The notes below the pieces were generated by a model. That model searched no databases, was not told where the DNA came from, and saw only the letters and a program-made list of their open reading frames with translations. 64,000 nucleotides of DNA from positions 1 to 64,000 of the forward strand of contig JANXYO010000008.1 of the NCBI GenBank assembly GCA_025356015.1, in the 5' to 3' direction. Position numbers and translations under genes: made by a program. This DNA is from Spirochaetaceae bacterium (lineage in GTDB: Bacteria; Spirochaetota; Spirochaetia; Treponematales; Rectinemataceae). Every line of letters starts with the position of its first letter. Position 1 is the first letter of the stretch. Shown here piece after piece: positions 53,954 to 63,852 of the stretch.

Positions 53954-54652
53954 ATGCGTTTCGAGATCGAGAAGACGGTCCTTGAGGCGGCTCCCGACAT
54001 CGTCATCGGTGTCGTCGTCGCCAGGGGAATCGACAACAGCCGTCCCAGGCCCGCCATAAGCGCGAGGCTGGGCGAGGCCATAGCCGAGACCCTGCCCAGG
54101 CTCGCGTCCAAGGCCAAGGAGGATCAGCGGATACAGGCCTACCGCGAGGCCTTCTCCCGCTTCGGGATAAACCCCAACAAGTACCCCTGCTCCATAGAAG
54201 CCATCATGAGCCGTCTGCAGAAGGGCGGGAACCTCCCCTCCATCAACCCCATCGTCGACCTTGGGAACGCGGTGTCGATCAAGTACATCCTGCCCATAGG
54301 AGCCCACGACCTCGACCAGGTAGGGGGCGAGCTGTCCCTGAGGCGGGCGGTGAGGGGGGATCGCTTCCTCCCATTCGGGACCGACCAGGAGGAGGTCGTG
54401 GACGAGGGAGAGCTCGTCTACGCGAGCGGGAGCACTGTGCGCACGCGGCGCTGGATGTGGAGGCAGAGCGAGATAGGGAAGATAGTGGCAGGGAGCTCCT
54501 ACGTATTCTTCCCGATCGACGGTTTCGCCGGGATCAACGAGGCTGCGGTGCTGGAAGCCCGCGACGAGCTCGCCCGCCTCGTGGAGAGCGAGCTCGGAGG
54601 GACGGCCGTGACGGGCCTCGTTGACCGCGGAACGCCAGTCTTCGAGGCCTAA
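53954..54652 (+). CDS. B3/B4-domain protein (PheRS beta-like editing fold)
   Basis: A 232-residue stand-alone B3/B4 domain, the fold that in phenylalanyl-tRNA synthetase beta performs editing. AYREAFSRFGINPNKYPCSIEAI and PSINPIVDLGNAVSIKY (shown in short form) are typical of the free-standing family, and the C-terminal part ends with VFFPIDGFAGIN. The function of these free proteins is not settled; deacylation of a misacylated tRNA or a sugar-related role has been suggested. It follows fhs by 15 bases, likely cotranscribed. Confidence 0.78.
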   Translation: MRFEIEKTVLEAAPDIVIGVVVARGIDNSRPRPAISARLGEAIAETLPRLASKAKEDQRIQAYREAFSRFGINPNKYPCSIEAIMSRLQKGGNLPSINPIVDLGNAVSIKYILPIGAHDLDQVGGELSLRRAVRGDRFLPFGTDQEEVVDEGELVYASGSTVRTRRWMWRQSEIGKIVAGSSYVFFPIDGFAGINEAAVLEARDELARLVESELGGTAVTGLVDRGTPVFEA

Positions 54653-56996: not shown

Positions 56997-58268
56997 CTAT
57001 GGAGTCAGGCGATGGCGATCCCTGGGGAAGAGGCTGGCCTGGCGGACGTTCTGGAAGCCCATGATCTTCTGGGTAAGCCGCTCGAGGCCTATGGCGAAGC
57101 CTCCGTGCGGCGGGCAGCCGTACTTGAATATCGAGGCGTAGGCCGCGTAGTCCCCCTCCTCCATTCCGTTGCGCTCGAAGCTCTCCTTGAGCATCGTGTA
57201 CTCGTTGATCCTGCGGCCCCCCGTCGTCACCTCGAGGCCGCGGAAGATGCAGTCGAAGCTCATGGTCGACCTGCCCTTGGGGTAGGCGTAGAAGGGCCTG
57301 TGCTTGCGCGGGAACTCGTTCACGAAGACCAGGTCGCTGCCGCGCTCGCGCTCCGACCAGGCGCATATCGCGCGCTCGACCTCGGGCGTGATCTCGTAGG
57401 CCTTCGTGCCCGCCTCGCGGTTCGCGATCTCGATCGCCTCGTCGTGCCCTACAACGGGGGCTTTCGCCACTTCCTCGGGAGTCGGGACGCGGGCGCCCCA
57501 GGCCGAAAGCTCGCGCGAGTTGCGGGATGAGACCGCCTCGAAGATCGAGGAGAAGAGCCGGCGCTCGAGTTCGATGAGGTCGAGCTCGCTTTCTATGAAG
57601 GCGAGCTCGAGGTCGAGGGAGCAGTACTCGTTGAGGTGCCGAGGCGTGTCGTGCTTCTCGGCCCTGTATGCCTGGCCGATCTCGAAGACCCGCTCGAGTC
57701 CCGAGGCCACCATCGCCTGCTTGTAGAACTGAGGAGACTGGGCCAGATACGCGCGTTGTCCGAAATAGTCGACCTCAAAGAGTCCCGATCCCCCTTCCGT
57801 CCCGGTGGCCACGAGCTTCGAGGTCTTGACCTCGGTGAAGCCCTGGGATCTCAGGGTGGTTGCGAAAGCCTCGAGGATTGTCGCCTGGACGCGGAAGGCC
57901 CCGAGGGCCTTGGGGTTCCTCAAGGAGAGGAAGCGCTGGTCGAGGGCCGATTCAAGGGACAGTGAATCGGGATCGGCGTTCACCTGGATCGGGATTCCGG
58001 GCTCTGCGGGGGCGATCAGCTCGATGGAGGTGGCGGCGAGCTCCCAGCCGCCAGGGGCCCGTGGGTTCTCCCTCGACTTGCCTCGCACCCTGATCACGGA
58101 CTCAAGCGTAGCCTCAGGCGCGGCATCCGCGACCACCTGGGCGAGGCCCGAGCGGTCGCGGAGCACGACAAAGCAGATCTTGCCGAGGTCGCGGACCCTA
58201 TGGATCCAGCCGGCGAGCTCGACATCGGCCCCTTCCTCATGGGGCAATTCGGCGGCGAGGGTCCTCAT
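56997..58268 (-). CDS. aspS: Archaeal-type aspartyl-tRNA synthetase, probably non-discriminating
   Basis: A 423-residue class IIb synthetase lacking the bacterial GAD insertion. An N-terminal OB fold is followed by the catalytic core. TATGTEGGSGLF-like signature (here KLVATGTEGGSGLFEV), YLAQSPQFYKQAMVASG and FEIGQAYRAEKHDTPRHL define AspRS rather than AsnRS, which would have a VSGQL motif. His23 (GWIHRV) and Pro71 (PRAPGGWEL) stand at the two positions where discriminating archaeal AspRS has Trp and Lys. This His/Pro pair is that of enzymes that charge both tRNA-Asp and tRNA-Asn. Overlaps gatB by ATGA, consistent with Asp-tRNA-Asn being passed to GatCAB. Confidence 0.85.
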   Translation of the reverse strand: MRTLAAELPHEEGADVELAGWIHRVRDLGKICFVVLRDRSGLAQVVADAAPEATLESVIRVRGKSRENPRAPGGWELAATSIELIAPAEPGIPIQVNADPDSLSLESALDQRFLSLRNPKALGAFRVQATILEAFATTLRSQGFTEVKTSKLVATGTEGGSGLFEVDYFGQRAYLAQSPQFYKQAMVASGLERVFEIGQAYRAEKHDTPRHLNEYCSLDLELAFIESELDLIELERRLFSSIFEAVSSRNSRELSAWGARVPTPEEVAKAPVVGHDEAIEIANREAGTKAYEITPEVERAICAWSERERGSDLVFVNEFPRKHRPFYAYPKGRSTMSFDCIFRGLEVTTGGRRINEYTMLKESFERNGMEEGDYAAYASIFKYGCPPHGGFAIGLERLTQKIMGFQNVRQASLFPRDRHRLTP

Positions 58269-59683
58269 GATCCGATCTCCTTACGTATCGCGGCCTCGAG
58301 GGCCCGCGGGTCTGCCATCCCCTTTGACGCGCGCATCGCCGCGCCCATGACGCGCGAGAGTGCCTTCGCGTTCCCGGCGAGGAAGGCATCTGCCGAATCC
58401 CTCTCGGCCGCCACGGCCGAACGCGCGATGGCCTCGATCGCCGGATAGTCAGCGATGCGCGAGCGCGATGCCTCCTCCAGGTGCTTCCGCGGGTCCTTGC
58501 CTTCCACGACGGCCGCGTCAAGGGCGGCGCGGGCCACGCCTGCGCCGATCTCGCCCGCGGCGAGGCCCTGGACGATGGCGGCGAGTCCGGGCCCGTCGAG
58601 GCGCTCGATGACCTGGGAGAGGCCGAAACGGTTCACCCGGGCCCTGATGTCGCTTTCCATGAAGGTCGCTGTGGCGGCAGCCTCGGCGCCGGCGGCAAGG
58701 GCCGCGTCGAAGAGCTCGGCGAGACCGCGCTCCTCGACGATGGAGTCGGCCCTCTCATTCGGAATGCCGAGTGCAAGGAGGGCGCGCTTTCGCGCGAGCG
58801 GGGATGCGATGGCAGCCGAGGCGATGCCGGCGAGGTACTCATCGCTCGCGGCGAAGGCCGGTAGGTCTGGCTCGGGGAAGAAGCGGTAGTCGTGGGAGGA
58901 TTCCTTGCGGCGCATGGTCGCCGTTGCCCCGTGGTTCTCGTTCCAGAGCCTGGTCTCCTGCCAGATCCTCTCACCCTCATCGAGGGCCTTGGTCTGCCGC
59001 TCTATCTCGAACTCGATCGCCTCCCTGACAAAGCGGAAGGAGTTCATGTTCTTCACCTCGACCTTGGTGCCGAGGCCGGCGCCCTCGGTGTTCACGGAGA
59101 CGTTCGCGTCGCAGCGCAGGCTGCCCTCCTCCATGTTGCCGTCGCAGACCCCGAGGTGGCGCACCAGGCGGCGAAGGGAGCGGAGCATGGCCTCGGCCTC
59201 GGTCCCGCTGGAGAGCTCGGGCTCGGTGACGATCTCAAGGAGGGGGCAGCCCGCGCGGTTGAAATCAAGGAGGGACTTCTCCCCGGCATGGATCATCTTG
59301 CCCGCGTCCTCCTCGAAATGGCATTCGCGCAAGCGCAGGGTCTTCGCGCCGCCTCCGAGCTCGAACTCGAAGGCACCGCCCCTGCCGACGGGACGGGCGA
59401 ACTGGGAGATCTGGTAGTTCTTGGGCATGTCAGGATAGAAGTAGCTCTTCCGCTCGAAGAAGCTCTCGCGCTCGAGGGTGCAGCCCAGGGCATGGGCCGT
59501 GCGGTAGGCCATGGCAAGCGCCTCCTCGTTCAGGGCGGGAAGGACGCCGGGATAACCCATGCACACGGGGCAGACGTTCGTGTTCGGCTCGTCGCCGAAA
59601 TGCGCGGGGCATGAACAGAAGGCCTTGGTTCGCGAGCGCAGGTGGATGTGGATCTCGAGTCCTACAAAGCTCTGGTATTTCAT
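58265..59683 (-). CDS. gatB: Asp/Glu-tRNA amidotransferase subunit B
   Basis: A 472-residue subunit that phosphorylates the misacylated tRNA and binds it. FVGLEIHIHLRSRTKAFC (normally LEIHVQL) opens the protein. CPVCMGYPGVLPALN and YFYPDMPKNYQISQ are signature segments, and the zinc cysteines are in FCSCPAHFG and NVCPVC. The C-terminal helical and YqeY tail covers about the last 150 residues. The start inside the gatA stop (ATGA) was chosen over one three codons upstream. Central gene of the gatC-gatA-gatB-aspS operon. Confidence 0.93.
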   Translation of the reverse strand: MKYQSFVGLEIHIHLRSRTKAFCSCPAHFGDEPNTNVCPVCMGYPGVLPALNEEALAMAYRTAHALGCTLERESFFERKSYFYPDMPKNYQISQFARPVGRGGAFEFELGGGAKTLRLRECHFEEDAGKMIHAGEKSLLDFNRAGCPLLEIVTEPELSSGTEAEAMLRSLRRLVRHLGVCDGNMEEGSLRCDANVSVNTEGAGLGTKVEVKNMNSFRFVREAIEFEIERQTKALDEGERIWQETRLWNENHGATATMRRKESSHDYRFFPEPDLPAFAASDEYLAGIASAAIASPLARKRALLALGIPNERADSIVEERGLAELFDAALAAGAEAAATATFMESDIRARVNRFGLSQVIERLDGPGLAAIVQGLAAGEIGAGVARAALDAAVVEGKDPRKHLEEASRSRIADYPAIEAIARSAVAAERDSADAFLAGNAKALSRVMGAAMRASKGMADPRALEAAIRKEIGS

Positions 59684-61122
59684 GCGGGGCACTCCTCGCT
59701 GTACAGCGGCGGGGCCGCTGGGGGGATGTGGTCCGCGAGGACCCGCGCGATGGCAAAGAGCCTGTCCTCGCCGAAGGCCCTGCCCATGAGCTGGATACCC
59801 GTGGGCAGACCGCCCTCAAGGGTGGAAGGCATGGCGAGTGCGGGAAGCCCAGCGAGGTTCGCCGCGCAGGTGAAGCGGTCGGCGAGCTTCTGCATGAAGG
59901 GATCCATTGCCGGATCCCCCCTGCGGAAGGCCTGGGTCGGGAAGACGGGGCTCGCGATGGCGTCGACGCCAAGGGCGGCGGCGGCGAGCTCGCCGGCGAT
60001 GAGGCTCCGCAGCTTCTGGGCCTTGTGGTAGTAGCGGTACTGGAAGCCCGAGCGGAGGACATAGGTCCCGAGGAGGATCCTGAGCTTCACCTCGTCGCCG
60101 AAACCGGCGCTGCGGGTCTTCAAGACGAGCTCCTCGTGGCTCTCGGCTCCCGCCATCCTGGCGCCGTAGGATATACCGGTGAAGCGTGCGAGGTTGGCCG
60201 AGGCCTCGGCTGTCGCGATGACGTAGTAGGCTGGCACCACGTGAGCGAGCGAGGGCAGCTCGATGTCCACGACCTCGGCTCCTGCATCGCGCAACGCGTC
60301 GATGGCATTGCGGAAGCCCCGCTCGACCCCAGGCTCCAGGCCGAGGAGGGAGCCGGACGGTACGGCGATCCTCGAGCCGGCCAGGGGCCCGGCCGCCCCG
60401 CCCGTGTGAGCCCTGCGGTCGGCGGCCTCTTCCCCGGGCGCGTCGACGCTCGTCCTGTCTCGCGGATCGCGGCCGGCCATGGCTACGAAGACGGCCTGGG
60501 CCAGGTCGACTGTCCTTGCCATCACGCCGGCGGTCTCGAGGGAGGAGGCGTAGGCGACGAGGCCGAAGCGCGACACCGCGCCATAGGTCGGCTTGAGGCC
60601 ATAGAGGCCGCAGAAGGCGGCGGGCTGGCGGACCGAGCCGCCTGTGTCGGTGCCGAGGGCGAAGGGCACCATGCCGGCGGCCACCGCGGCGGCCGAGCCG
60701 CCCGAGGATCCCCCTGGCACCCGGTCGCGGTCCCAGGGGTTGAGGCTCGGCTTGTATGCCGAGTTTTCGGAGGAGGAGCCCATGCCGAACTCGTCGAGGT
60801 TTGTCTTGCCGATGCAGGCCGCCCCGGCCTCGAGGAGCCTGCGTACGCAGGTCGCCGAGTAGGGCGAGCGGAAGCCGTCGAGGATGCGCGAGCCGCAGGA
60901 GAGGCCCATGCCCTCGACGGCGATGTTGTCCTTGACCGCGAAGGGCAGGCCTGCGAGGGCTCCCGTGGCGGCTTTTCCATCCTTGTCGAGGGCGCGGACC
61001 GGATTTCTGGGATCGAGCTCGAGGAAGGCGCCGAGACCGCGCTCCCTTTCCTCGAGTACGCGGGAATATGCTTCGAGCCGGGCTCCAACGAGGATCCCGC
61101 CCCAAGGGGGAAGATGAGACAT
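59680..61122 (-). CDS. gatA: Asp/Glu-tRNA amidotransferase subunit A
   Basis: A 480-residue amidase-signature protein that frees ammonia from glutamine. The Ser-cisSer-Lys triad is visible: Lys64 in PFAVKDNIA, cis-Ser139 in VPGGSSGGSAA and nucleophile Ser163 in GTDTGGSVRQPAAF. KPTYGAVSRFGLVAYASSL is typical of GatA. It supplies ammonia to GatB for amidating Asp-tRNA-Asn or Glu-tRNA-Gln. Follows gatC by 15 bases. Confidence 0.95.
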   Translation of the reverse strand: MSHLPPWGGILVGARLEAYSRVLEERERGLGAFLELDPRNPVRALDKDGKAATGALAGLPFAVKDNIAVEGMGLSCGSRILDGFRSPYSATCVRRLLEAGAACIGKTNLDEFGMGSSSENSAYKPSLNPWDRDRVPGGSSGGSAAAVAAGMVPFALGTDTGGSVRQPAAFCGLYGLKPTYGAVSRFGLVAYASSLETAGVMARTVDLAQAVFVAMAGRDPRDRTSVDAPGEEAADRRAHTGGAAGPLAGSRIAVPSGSLLGLEPGVERGFRNAIDALRDAGAEVVDIELPSLAHVVPAYYVIATAEASANLARFTGISYGARMAGAESHEELVLKTRSAGFGDEVKLRILLGTYVLRSGFQYRYYHKAQKLRSLIAGELAAAALGVDAIASPVFPTQAFRRGDPAMDPFMQKLADRFTCAANLAGLPALAMPSTLEGGLPTGIQLMGRAFGEDRLFAIARVLADHIPPAAPPLYSEECPA

Positions 61123-61137
61123 GGAGACCTCCGGGTC

Positions 61138-61440
61138 TTACAGGACGTTCGGAATTACGACGTACCGCCCCGAGGTCTCCGGGGCGTTATTGACGAGGGA
61201 GTTCGAGAGGGGATTGTTGGAAGGATTGCGGTTGTTGAAATCGGTCGGGTCATCGGCGCGCTGTGGCGTGGCGCCAGCGGCCCAGTGGCTTCGCGCGGCC
61301 ACGGCATCGAGGTCGAGGGCGTCCATCGCGGAGAAGAAATCCAGCATCTGGGCGAGGGACCTTTCGAAGCCCTCGCGCTCGTCGCTTCCCAGAGCCAGCA
61401 TGGCCAGCTCGGCGGTCACGTCGAGGTCGTCCTTACGCAT
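61138..61440 (-). CDS. gatC: Asp/Glu-tRNA amidotransferase subunit C
   Basis: A 100-residue helical belt protein that stabilises the GatA-GatB complex. LDVTAELAMLALGSDEREGF and MLDFFSAMDALDLDAV give the N-terminal helices, and the C-terminal APETSGRYVVIPNVL is the usual closing motif (P-x-VL). The ATG giving MRKDDLDV was preferred to one seven codons upstream. First gene of the leftward operon; it diverges from a membrane-protein gene. Confidence 0.9.
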   Translation of the reverse strand: MRKDDLDVTAELAMLALGSDEREGFERSLAQMLDFFSAMDALDLDAVAARSHWAAGATPQRADDPTDFNNRNPSNNPLSNSLVNNAPETSGRYVVIPNVL

Positions 61441-61541
61441 AGAATCGTACCCCCGGGACACTTTCCCACATCGGGAGGCGCGGCGTCAAGCGGCCCAATG
61501 GACCCTTCGGTCCCCAGGGGCTCCTTGAGCCTTGCGGCAAA

Positions 61542-63123: not shown

Positions 63124-63190
63124 ACGTCAAAACAACCGCGCGTTGAGCGCATAGCTCGAATCGGGCATCTTCCTTTCGAGGAGGATGCCG

Positions 63191-63508
63191 ATGGAACGAC
63201 ACGGCCCTGAGTTCTGGAAGAAGCGCATTGCCGAGCAGCAATCGCGGAGGCAGAGCGTCGTCGACTACTGCGATCGCCAGGGACTCTCACGGTACACCTT
63301 CATACGGTGGCGGAGTCGCCTTGCTGTGGTGGCGGGGAGCGGCTTGGTGGAGATCAAGAAGTCGCCTGACTCCAGGTCCAGCTTTCGTGGTGACTTCGAC
63401 GCAGTGCTGGAATTGTGCCTTGGCGACGATCTCCGGGCCCGGTTCCGGTCCATGCCGGAGCCAGAGGCGCTCGCCGAGTTCGTCGCGGCGCTCCGGAACG
63501 CGCGATGA
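63191..63508 (+). CDS. tnpA: IS66 accessory protein TnpA
   Basis: A 105-residue protein with a helix-turn-helix of the IS66 OrfA/IS2-like type (SVVDYCDRQGLSRYTFIRW). It binds the element ends. The ATG six bases after GAGGAGG was chosen over an earlier one that would sit directly against the ribosome binding site. Overlaps tnpB by four bases. Confidence 0.8.
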   Translation: MERHGPEFWKKRIAEQQSRRQSVVDYCDRQGLSRYTFIRWRSRLAVVAGSGLVEIKKSPDSRSSFRGDFDAVLELCLGDDLRARFRSMPEPEALAEFVAALRNAR

Positions 63509-63852
63509 GAATCGACCTCGAAACGGCGAGGGTCTTCGTCCGGCCGGGCGTGACCGACATGCGCAAGCATATCAACGGGCTCGCGGCGATCGTGGAGGGA
63601 ACGATGCGGGAGAGCCCCTTCACGGGGAACCTCTTCCTGTTCGCGAACCGCCAGAAGACCACCTTGAAGGTGATCTATTGGGACCGCAATGGATTCTGCC
63701 TCTGGATCAAGCGGCTCGAGAAAGACCGCTTCCCATGGCCGGACGATGAGGCGGCCGCCCGCGAGATCACGCACGACGAGGTGCGAATGATGCTCGCGGG
63801 AATCGATTTCTGGCACCGCCACGGGGAGCTTCGCTACACGACGGTGCTATGA
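63505..63852 (+). CDS. tnpB: IS66 accessory protein TnpB
   Basis: A 115-residue IS66 Orf2 protein, full length for the family. The conserved RPGVTDMRKHINGLAAIV, LFLFANRQKTTLKVIYWDRN and GFCLWIKRLEKDRFPWP are unmistakable. Its role in transposition is required but mechanistically unclear. Translationally coupled to tnpA by ATGA. Confidence 0.95.
   Translation: MRIDLETARVFVRPGVTDMRKHINGLAAIVEGTMRESPFTGNLFLFANRQKTTLKVIYWDRNGFCLWIKRLEKDRFPWPDDEAAAREITHDEVRMMLAGIDFWHRHGELRYTTVL

Follow-up and report, generated by a model that had tools for sequence, protein, structure and literature searches.

The gatCAB-aspS2 operon described here most likely (probability roughly 0.86, judged from gene content and sequence) encodes a module for tRNA-dependent asparagine synthesis, comprising an archaeal-type aspartyl-tRNA synthetase (AspRS2) and the amidotransferase GatCAB, that would work beside direct charging by AsnRS. 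AspRS2 would charge tRNA-Asp and also mischarge tRNA-Asn with aspartate, and GatCAB would amidate the resulting Asp-tRNA-Asn to Asn-tRNA-Asn, probably inside an AspRS2-GatCAB complex, a transamidosome, as in Thermus thermophilus. Because neither AsnA nor AsnB was found in the source genome, the module is probably the cell's sole de novo source of asparagine, and the operon most likely supplies the amino acid itself rather than replacing AsnRS. For its part, AsnRS would recharge tRNA-Asn with free asparagine, either imported or recycled from protein, the bacterial AspRS1 would serve tRNA-Asp, and Gln-tRNA-Gln would come from GlnRS, the presence of which would make GatCAB unnecessary for that product.

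The operon occupies the minus strand of the window, that is, the whole 64,000-nucleotide stretch of DNA analysed, where the gene order gatC-gatA-gatB-aspS2 runs over 61461..56997 (Table 1). There are ATGA overlaps at both the gatA/gatB and gatB/aspS2 junctions; the probable start of gatB, ATG 59683, overlaps the gatA stop, and the ATGA at the gatB stop bears out the overlap with aspS2 reported in the preliminary description, which had taken the ATG of gatC at 61440 as its end point. That description had assigned an archaeal-type AspRS to the same operon as gatCAB, and both the gene order and the curated models agree with it. GatA scores 482.9 bits on TIGR00132 (cutoff 481.1) and 433 bits on Pfam Amidase, GatB 511.6 bits on NF004012 (cutoff 338) and 439 bits on TIGR00133 (cutoff 314.8), and GatC 31.4 bits on Pfam GatC (above the cutoff of 23) and 43.1 bits on TIGR00135, slightly below the cutoff of 47.1. 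With E < 1e-100 for every operon protein except GatC, a chance pattern is excluded as the source of these gene identities. Two other features of the window lie close by. A stand-alone B3/4 domain protein (95 bits; 53954-54652, plus strand) is encoded 2.3 kb from the operon and is possibly a tRNA-editing or related protein, the domain being otherwise found in PheRS beta. Near the upstream side of the operon, two short open reading frames (63185-63852, plus strand) resemble, by eye, IS66-type accessory genes.

Table 1. Coordinates of the operon genes and of two features within gatC and at its junction with gatA
Feature	Coordinates	Strand	Remarks
gatC, amidotransferase subunit C	61461..61138	-	start GTG 61461 or ATG 61440; open reading frame list and Pfam GatC
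gatA, amidotransferase subunit A	61122..59680	-	TIGR00132, Pfam Amidase
gatB, Asp-tRNA(Asn)/Glu-tRNA(Gln) amidotransferase subunit B	59692..58265	-	NF004012, TIGR00133
aspS2, archaeal-type, probably non-discriminating aspartyl-tRNA synthetase	58268..56997	-	423 aa, H23/P72; NF003483, TIGR00458, PDB match
GatC Asn-rich stretch FNNRNPSNNPLSNSLVNN	61181..61240 (approximate)	-	8 of 19 residues Asn, preceding D included
Candidate hairpin	61123..61185 (approximate)	-	GGAGACCTC in gatC, perfect 9-bp pairing with GAGGTCTCC

AspRS2 exceeds the cutoff of each of the two curated aspartate--tRNA(Asn) ligase models, with 497.1 bits on NF003483 (cutoff 353) and 374.7 bits on TIGR00458, aspS_nondisc (cutoff 368.4). 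Across its 423 residues, a Pfam scan returned an OB-fold and a tRNA-synt_2 domain and no bacterial GAD insertion, and its best match in the PDB is the T. thermophilus AspRS2 (1n9w/3kfu, E 1.3e-114), with which it shares 47% identity. In archaeal AspRS, discrimination between tRNA-Asp and tRNA-Asn is controlled by two positions of the anticodon-binding domain, which are His and Pro or Trp and Lys. The alignments place H23, A71 and P72 of AspRS2 in invariant columns, with His and Pro at the signature positions also in T. thermophilus AspRS2 and Sulfolobus AspRS, and Trp and Lys in Thermococcus AspRS. The preliminary description was right about His23, and its Pro71 was one residue off, the proline being Pro72. 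We conclude that AspRS2 is probably non-discriminating and would charge tRNA-Asn with aspartate as well, although the two-residue signature is an imperfect guide, as about a third of 85 relatives depart from it, among them an AspRS with H/V at these positions (locus L055) that comes from the same kind of operon.

The source genome (4.17 Mb, 150 contigs, 99.4% complete) contains three PF00152 loci, namely AspRS2, the bacterial AspRS1 (contig C55; 734 bits on TIGR00459) and a full-length bacterial AsnRS (contig C121; 602.6 bits on TIGR00457, cutoff 342.6). The preliminary description had foreseen either a second, bacterial-type AspRS or a missing AsnRS, and had counted a functional AsnRS as half of what would argue against its reading; the former enzyme is encoded elsewhere in the genome, and the AsnRS gene is present and complete. 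The search that it proposed for asnS, asnA, asnB and a bacterial aspS returned asnS and aspS only: AsnA has no PF03590 match and AsnB no PF00733 match in the genome, where TIGR01536 finds distant matches only (best 84.5 bits against a cutoff of 267). It is possible that asnA or asnB was overlooked in an assembly of 150 contigs, though unlikely given its completeness. The PF00152 matches include no class II LysRS; presumably a class I LysRS, as is usual in spirochaetes, charges lysine instead. GlnRS (642.8 bits, above cutoff) adjoins GluRS on contig C7, and GatB is present in a single copy. Only one tRNA-Asn(GUU) was found, with a U1-A72 pair and G73 (tccccug...gggggaG), and bacterial GatCAB needs the U1-A72 pair in order to recognise a tRNA (PMC4206432). 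The claim of indirect Asn-tRNA synthesis therefore stands insofar as the operon probably pairs a non-discriminating AspRS with gatCAB, but not as a stand-in for AsnRS.

Within a sample of 30 Rectinemataceae genomes that includes the source genome, GatB was found in two, the source genome and G009, and the same two exceed the NF003483 cutoff. Both carriers encode AsnRS, and neither AsnA nor AsnB was found in either; G009 has an identical gene order in a different surrounding neighbourhood. Asparagine synthetase is present in 15 of the 30 genomes, and the chance that both carriers would fall among the 15 without it is about 0.24, so that mutual exclusion of AspRS2-GatCAB and asparagine synthetase is suggestive only, two carriers being too few to test it. 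AsnA, AsnB and GatB all went undetected in G003-G008, G015, G017-G021 and G023, some of them almost complete (99% for G004), and these are possibly asparagine auxotrophs with AsnRS only. Three family genomes (G003, G025 and G012; loci L006, L007 and L008) encode an extra, divergent AsnRS of about 430 residues beside the normal one; that of L006, the one scanned, is above both AsnRS cutoffs but reaches 301 bits on the AspRS(Asn) model as well. Since AsnB, AsnA, AspRS2-GatCAB and none of these alternate among close relatives, the family offers a natural comparison for the gain and loss of indirect aminoacylation. The family sample also bears on the idea that AspRS1, too, is non-discriminating, with AspRS2 serving as a spare or a stress form and mischarging shared between the two. 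AspRS1 does carry His at the RDHGG position, and in Pseudomonas AspRS a His there has reportedly been linked to relaxed specificity. However, RDHGG also occurs in the AspRS of G001, G015, G016 and G022, all of them without a GatB that could repair Asp-tRNA-Asn, so this residue is not diagnostic of relaxed specificity, and we consider such sharing very improbable.

Across the phylum, 56 of 393 sampled genomes gave an AspRS2 match at E < 1e-100, and, with G009 added, the carriers in the Spirochaetia number 37. All 37 encode AsnRS, which, together with the full-length AsnRS above the curated cutoff in the source genome, makes it extremely improbable that AspRS2-GatCAB is the only route to Asn-tRNA-Asn and that AsnRS is missing. 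Such an arrangement would have had precedent, as 10 of 15 genera with an extra AspRS outside Deinococcus-Thermus are without AsnRS (PMC4206432), and the same type of aspS2-gat operon is common in Clostridia. AsnB was found in 4 and AsnA in 10 of the 37 carriers; 11 have either or both, so that some carriers have a source of asparagine besides the operon, and in the remaining 26 both went undetected. The gat genes lie just upstream of aspS2 in 27 of the 37, whereas none were found beside aspS2 in the other 10, all of family f4 and some on short contigs. This common operon, along with the co-occurrence of GatCAB and AspRS2 in the family, argues against a discriminating AspRS2 that charges tRNA-Asp only, with GatCAB acting on Glu-tRNA-Gln and the operon unrelated to asparagine. 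Both tRNA-Gln genes carry U1-A72, which would let GatCAB work on Glu-tRNA-Gln provided that a GluRS produced it; however, a GlnRS above cutoff adjoins GluRS, and a strict AspRS2 beside AspRS1 would be redundant. We regard this alternative as very improbable, and a non-discriminating AspRS2 that provides GatCAB with Asp-tRNA-Asn remains our preferred reading.

The nearest relatives of AspRS2 overall are from spirochaetes, at 51-66% identity. The relatives that carry names in the genome collection come from metagenome-assembled genomes of Spirochaetales, Spirochaetaceae and Treponema (56-61%); those from Clostridia, Bipolaricaulota, Thermus and archaea follow at 38-48%. AspRS2 falls in a Spirochaetia clade both in a quick tree (10 rows, support 100) and in a second tree (39 rows, support 99), and the GC and GC3 of the operon agree with those of the neighbouring genes. 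Since this clade is Spirochaetia-wide and the composition matches, a recent import from archaea, which we considered, is unsupported; the horizontal origin proposed in the preliminary description is plausible only as an ancient exchange. The AspRS2 tree that it called for recovers the clade and leaves the placement within it unsettled: the quick tree joins the source AspRS2 to that of G350, from another family, and the alternative tree, in which it groups with that of G009, is not rejected either, having a p-AU of 0.69 and the higher likelihood. For this reason, we make no claim of separate transfers into the source genome and G009.

Outside the Spirochaetia, 10 phylum genomes (G131, G071, G160, G195, G168, G044, G089, G116, G082 and G056; loci L201-L210) encode GatA and AspRS2 as one open frame of 960-982 residues, followed in most of them by gatB. 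A further fusion frame, L064:4348-7287, is apparently on the same contig as that of G195. The three fusion proteins scanned with Pfam each combine Amidase, OB-fold and tRNA-synt_2 in a single chain, and one fusion exceeds the cutoffs of gatA (559 against 481) as well as aspS_nondisc (420 against 368). The open-licence papers searched contain no mention of a GatA-AspRS2 fusion. The protein is possibly a covalent transamidosome, in which case mischarging and repair would be carried out by a covalently linked pair.

The end of gatC raises the question of how the operon might be controlled. Asn makes up 2.3% of residues in neighbouring genes, compared with 8 in 19 in the GatC stretch (Table 1). 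Directly after this stretch lies GGAGACCTC, and its partner GAGGTCTCC covers the gatA ribosome-binding site; the junction fold has a z of about -2.3 to -2.5, and a match of at least 9 bases arises in 0.4-0.5% of mononucleotide shuffles. An Asn-rich GatC linker before the conserved C-terminus also occurs in L218, from G223, where the last ~50 residues hold 16 Asn, and in L055, with smaller NNN runs in the GatC of L225, L236 and L240. Three GatCs have at least 8 Asn among their last ~50 residues, and two of them show the strongest of 25 junction folds when a 115-nt window is folded, in which Asn content and fold are correlated (Spearman -0.53, p 0.007, 25 junctions, post hoc), but the link is gone in a 170-nt window (Spearman -0.08). 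An Asn-rich stretch and a strong fold occur together in G223 as well, whereas L055 does not combine them. A shortage of Asn-tRNA-Asn might conceivably stall ribosomes on the Asn stretch, unpair the two strands of the hairpin and free gatA translation, and, if this were true, the operon would sense its own product. We consider such attenuation very unlikely, as the link depends on the length of sequence folded, is unaccompanied by a strong fold in L055 and was sought post hoc; it is a lead only. T-box control occurs among clostridial aspS2-gatCAB operons. Upstream of the operon reported here, an Rfam search found no T-box or other known riboswitch, and the two hits that it gave below threshold belong to RNA families of eukaryotes.

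Among known systems, the closest likeness is to T. thermophilus and Deinococcus radiodurans, where an extra archaeal AspRS and GatCAB make Asn on tRNA-Asn in organisms that also possess AsnRS and GlnRS (PMC4206432). The source genome shares with this pathway an archaeal-type AspRS2 with H/P, AspRS1, AsnRS, GlnRS and GatCAB, as well as the lack of AsnA and AsnB and the U1-A72 pair of tRNA-Asn. It differs in that the host is a spirochaete, with an AspRS2 47% identical to that of T. thermophilus, and in that aspS2 is the last gene of a gatCAB operon with ATGA overlaps, whereas probes with the window proteins found no gat gene within flanks of up to 6 kb in four Thermus/Trueperaceae loci. Clostridial operons (for example L062, L074 and L081) likewise place gat genes next to that of an archaeal-type AspRS, but mostly with aspS2 first, then gatA-gatB, and with AspRS 39-45% identical. 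Bdellovibrio bacteriovorus resembles the source genome in having AsnRS, GlnRS and GatCAB, no asparagine synthetase, and Asn made on tRNA, although it uses one bacterial-type AspRS (PMC4206432). In a 2014 survey of 547 genera, the combination of AsnRS, GlnRS, GatCAB and an archaeal-type AspRS2 with no asparagine synthetase was found only in Deinococcus-Thermus (PMC4206432). The mechanism is thus already known from Thermus and Deinococcus, and what is new is its probable occurrence across the class Spirochaetia. The core of the combination, in which AspRS2 accompanies AsnRS and gat genes and asparagine synthetase is often missing, spans this class (GlnRS was checked in the source genome only), and heat adaptation is therefore a less general explanation for it.
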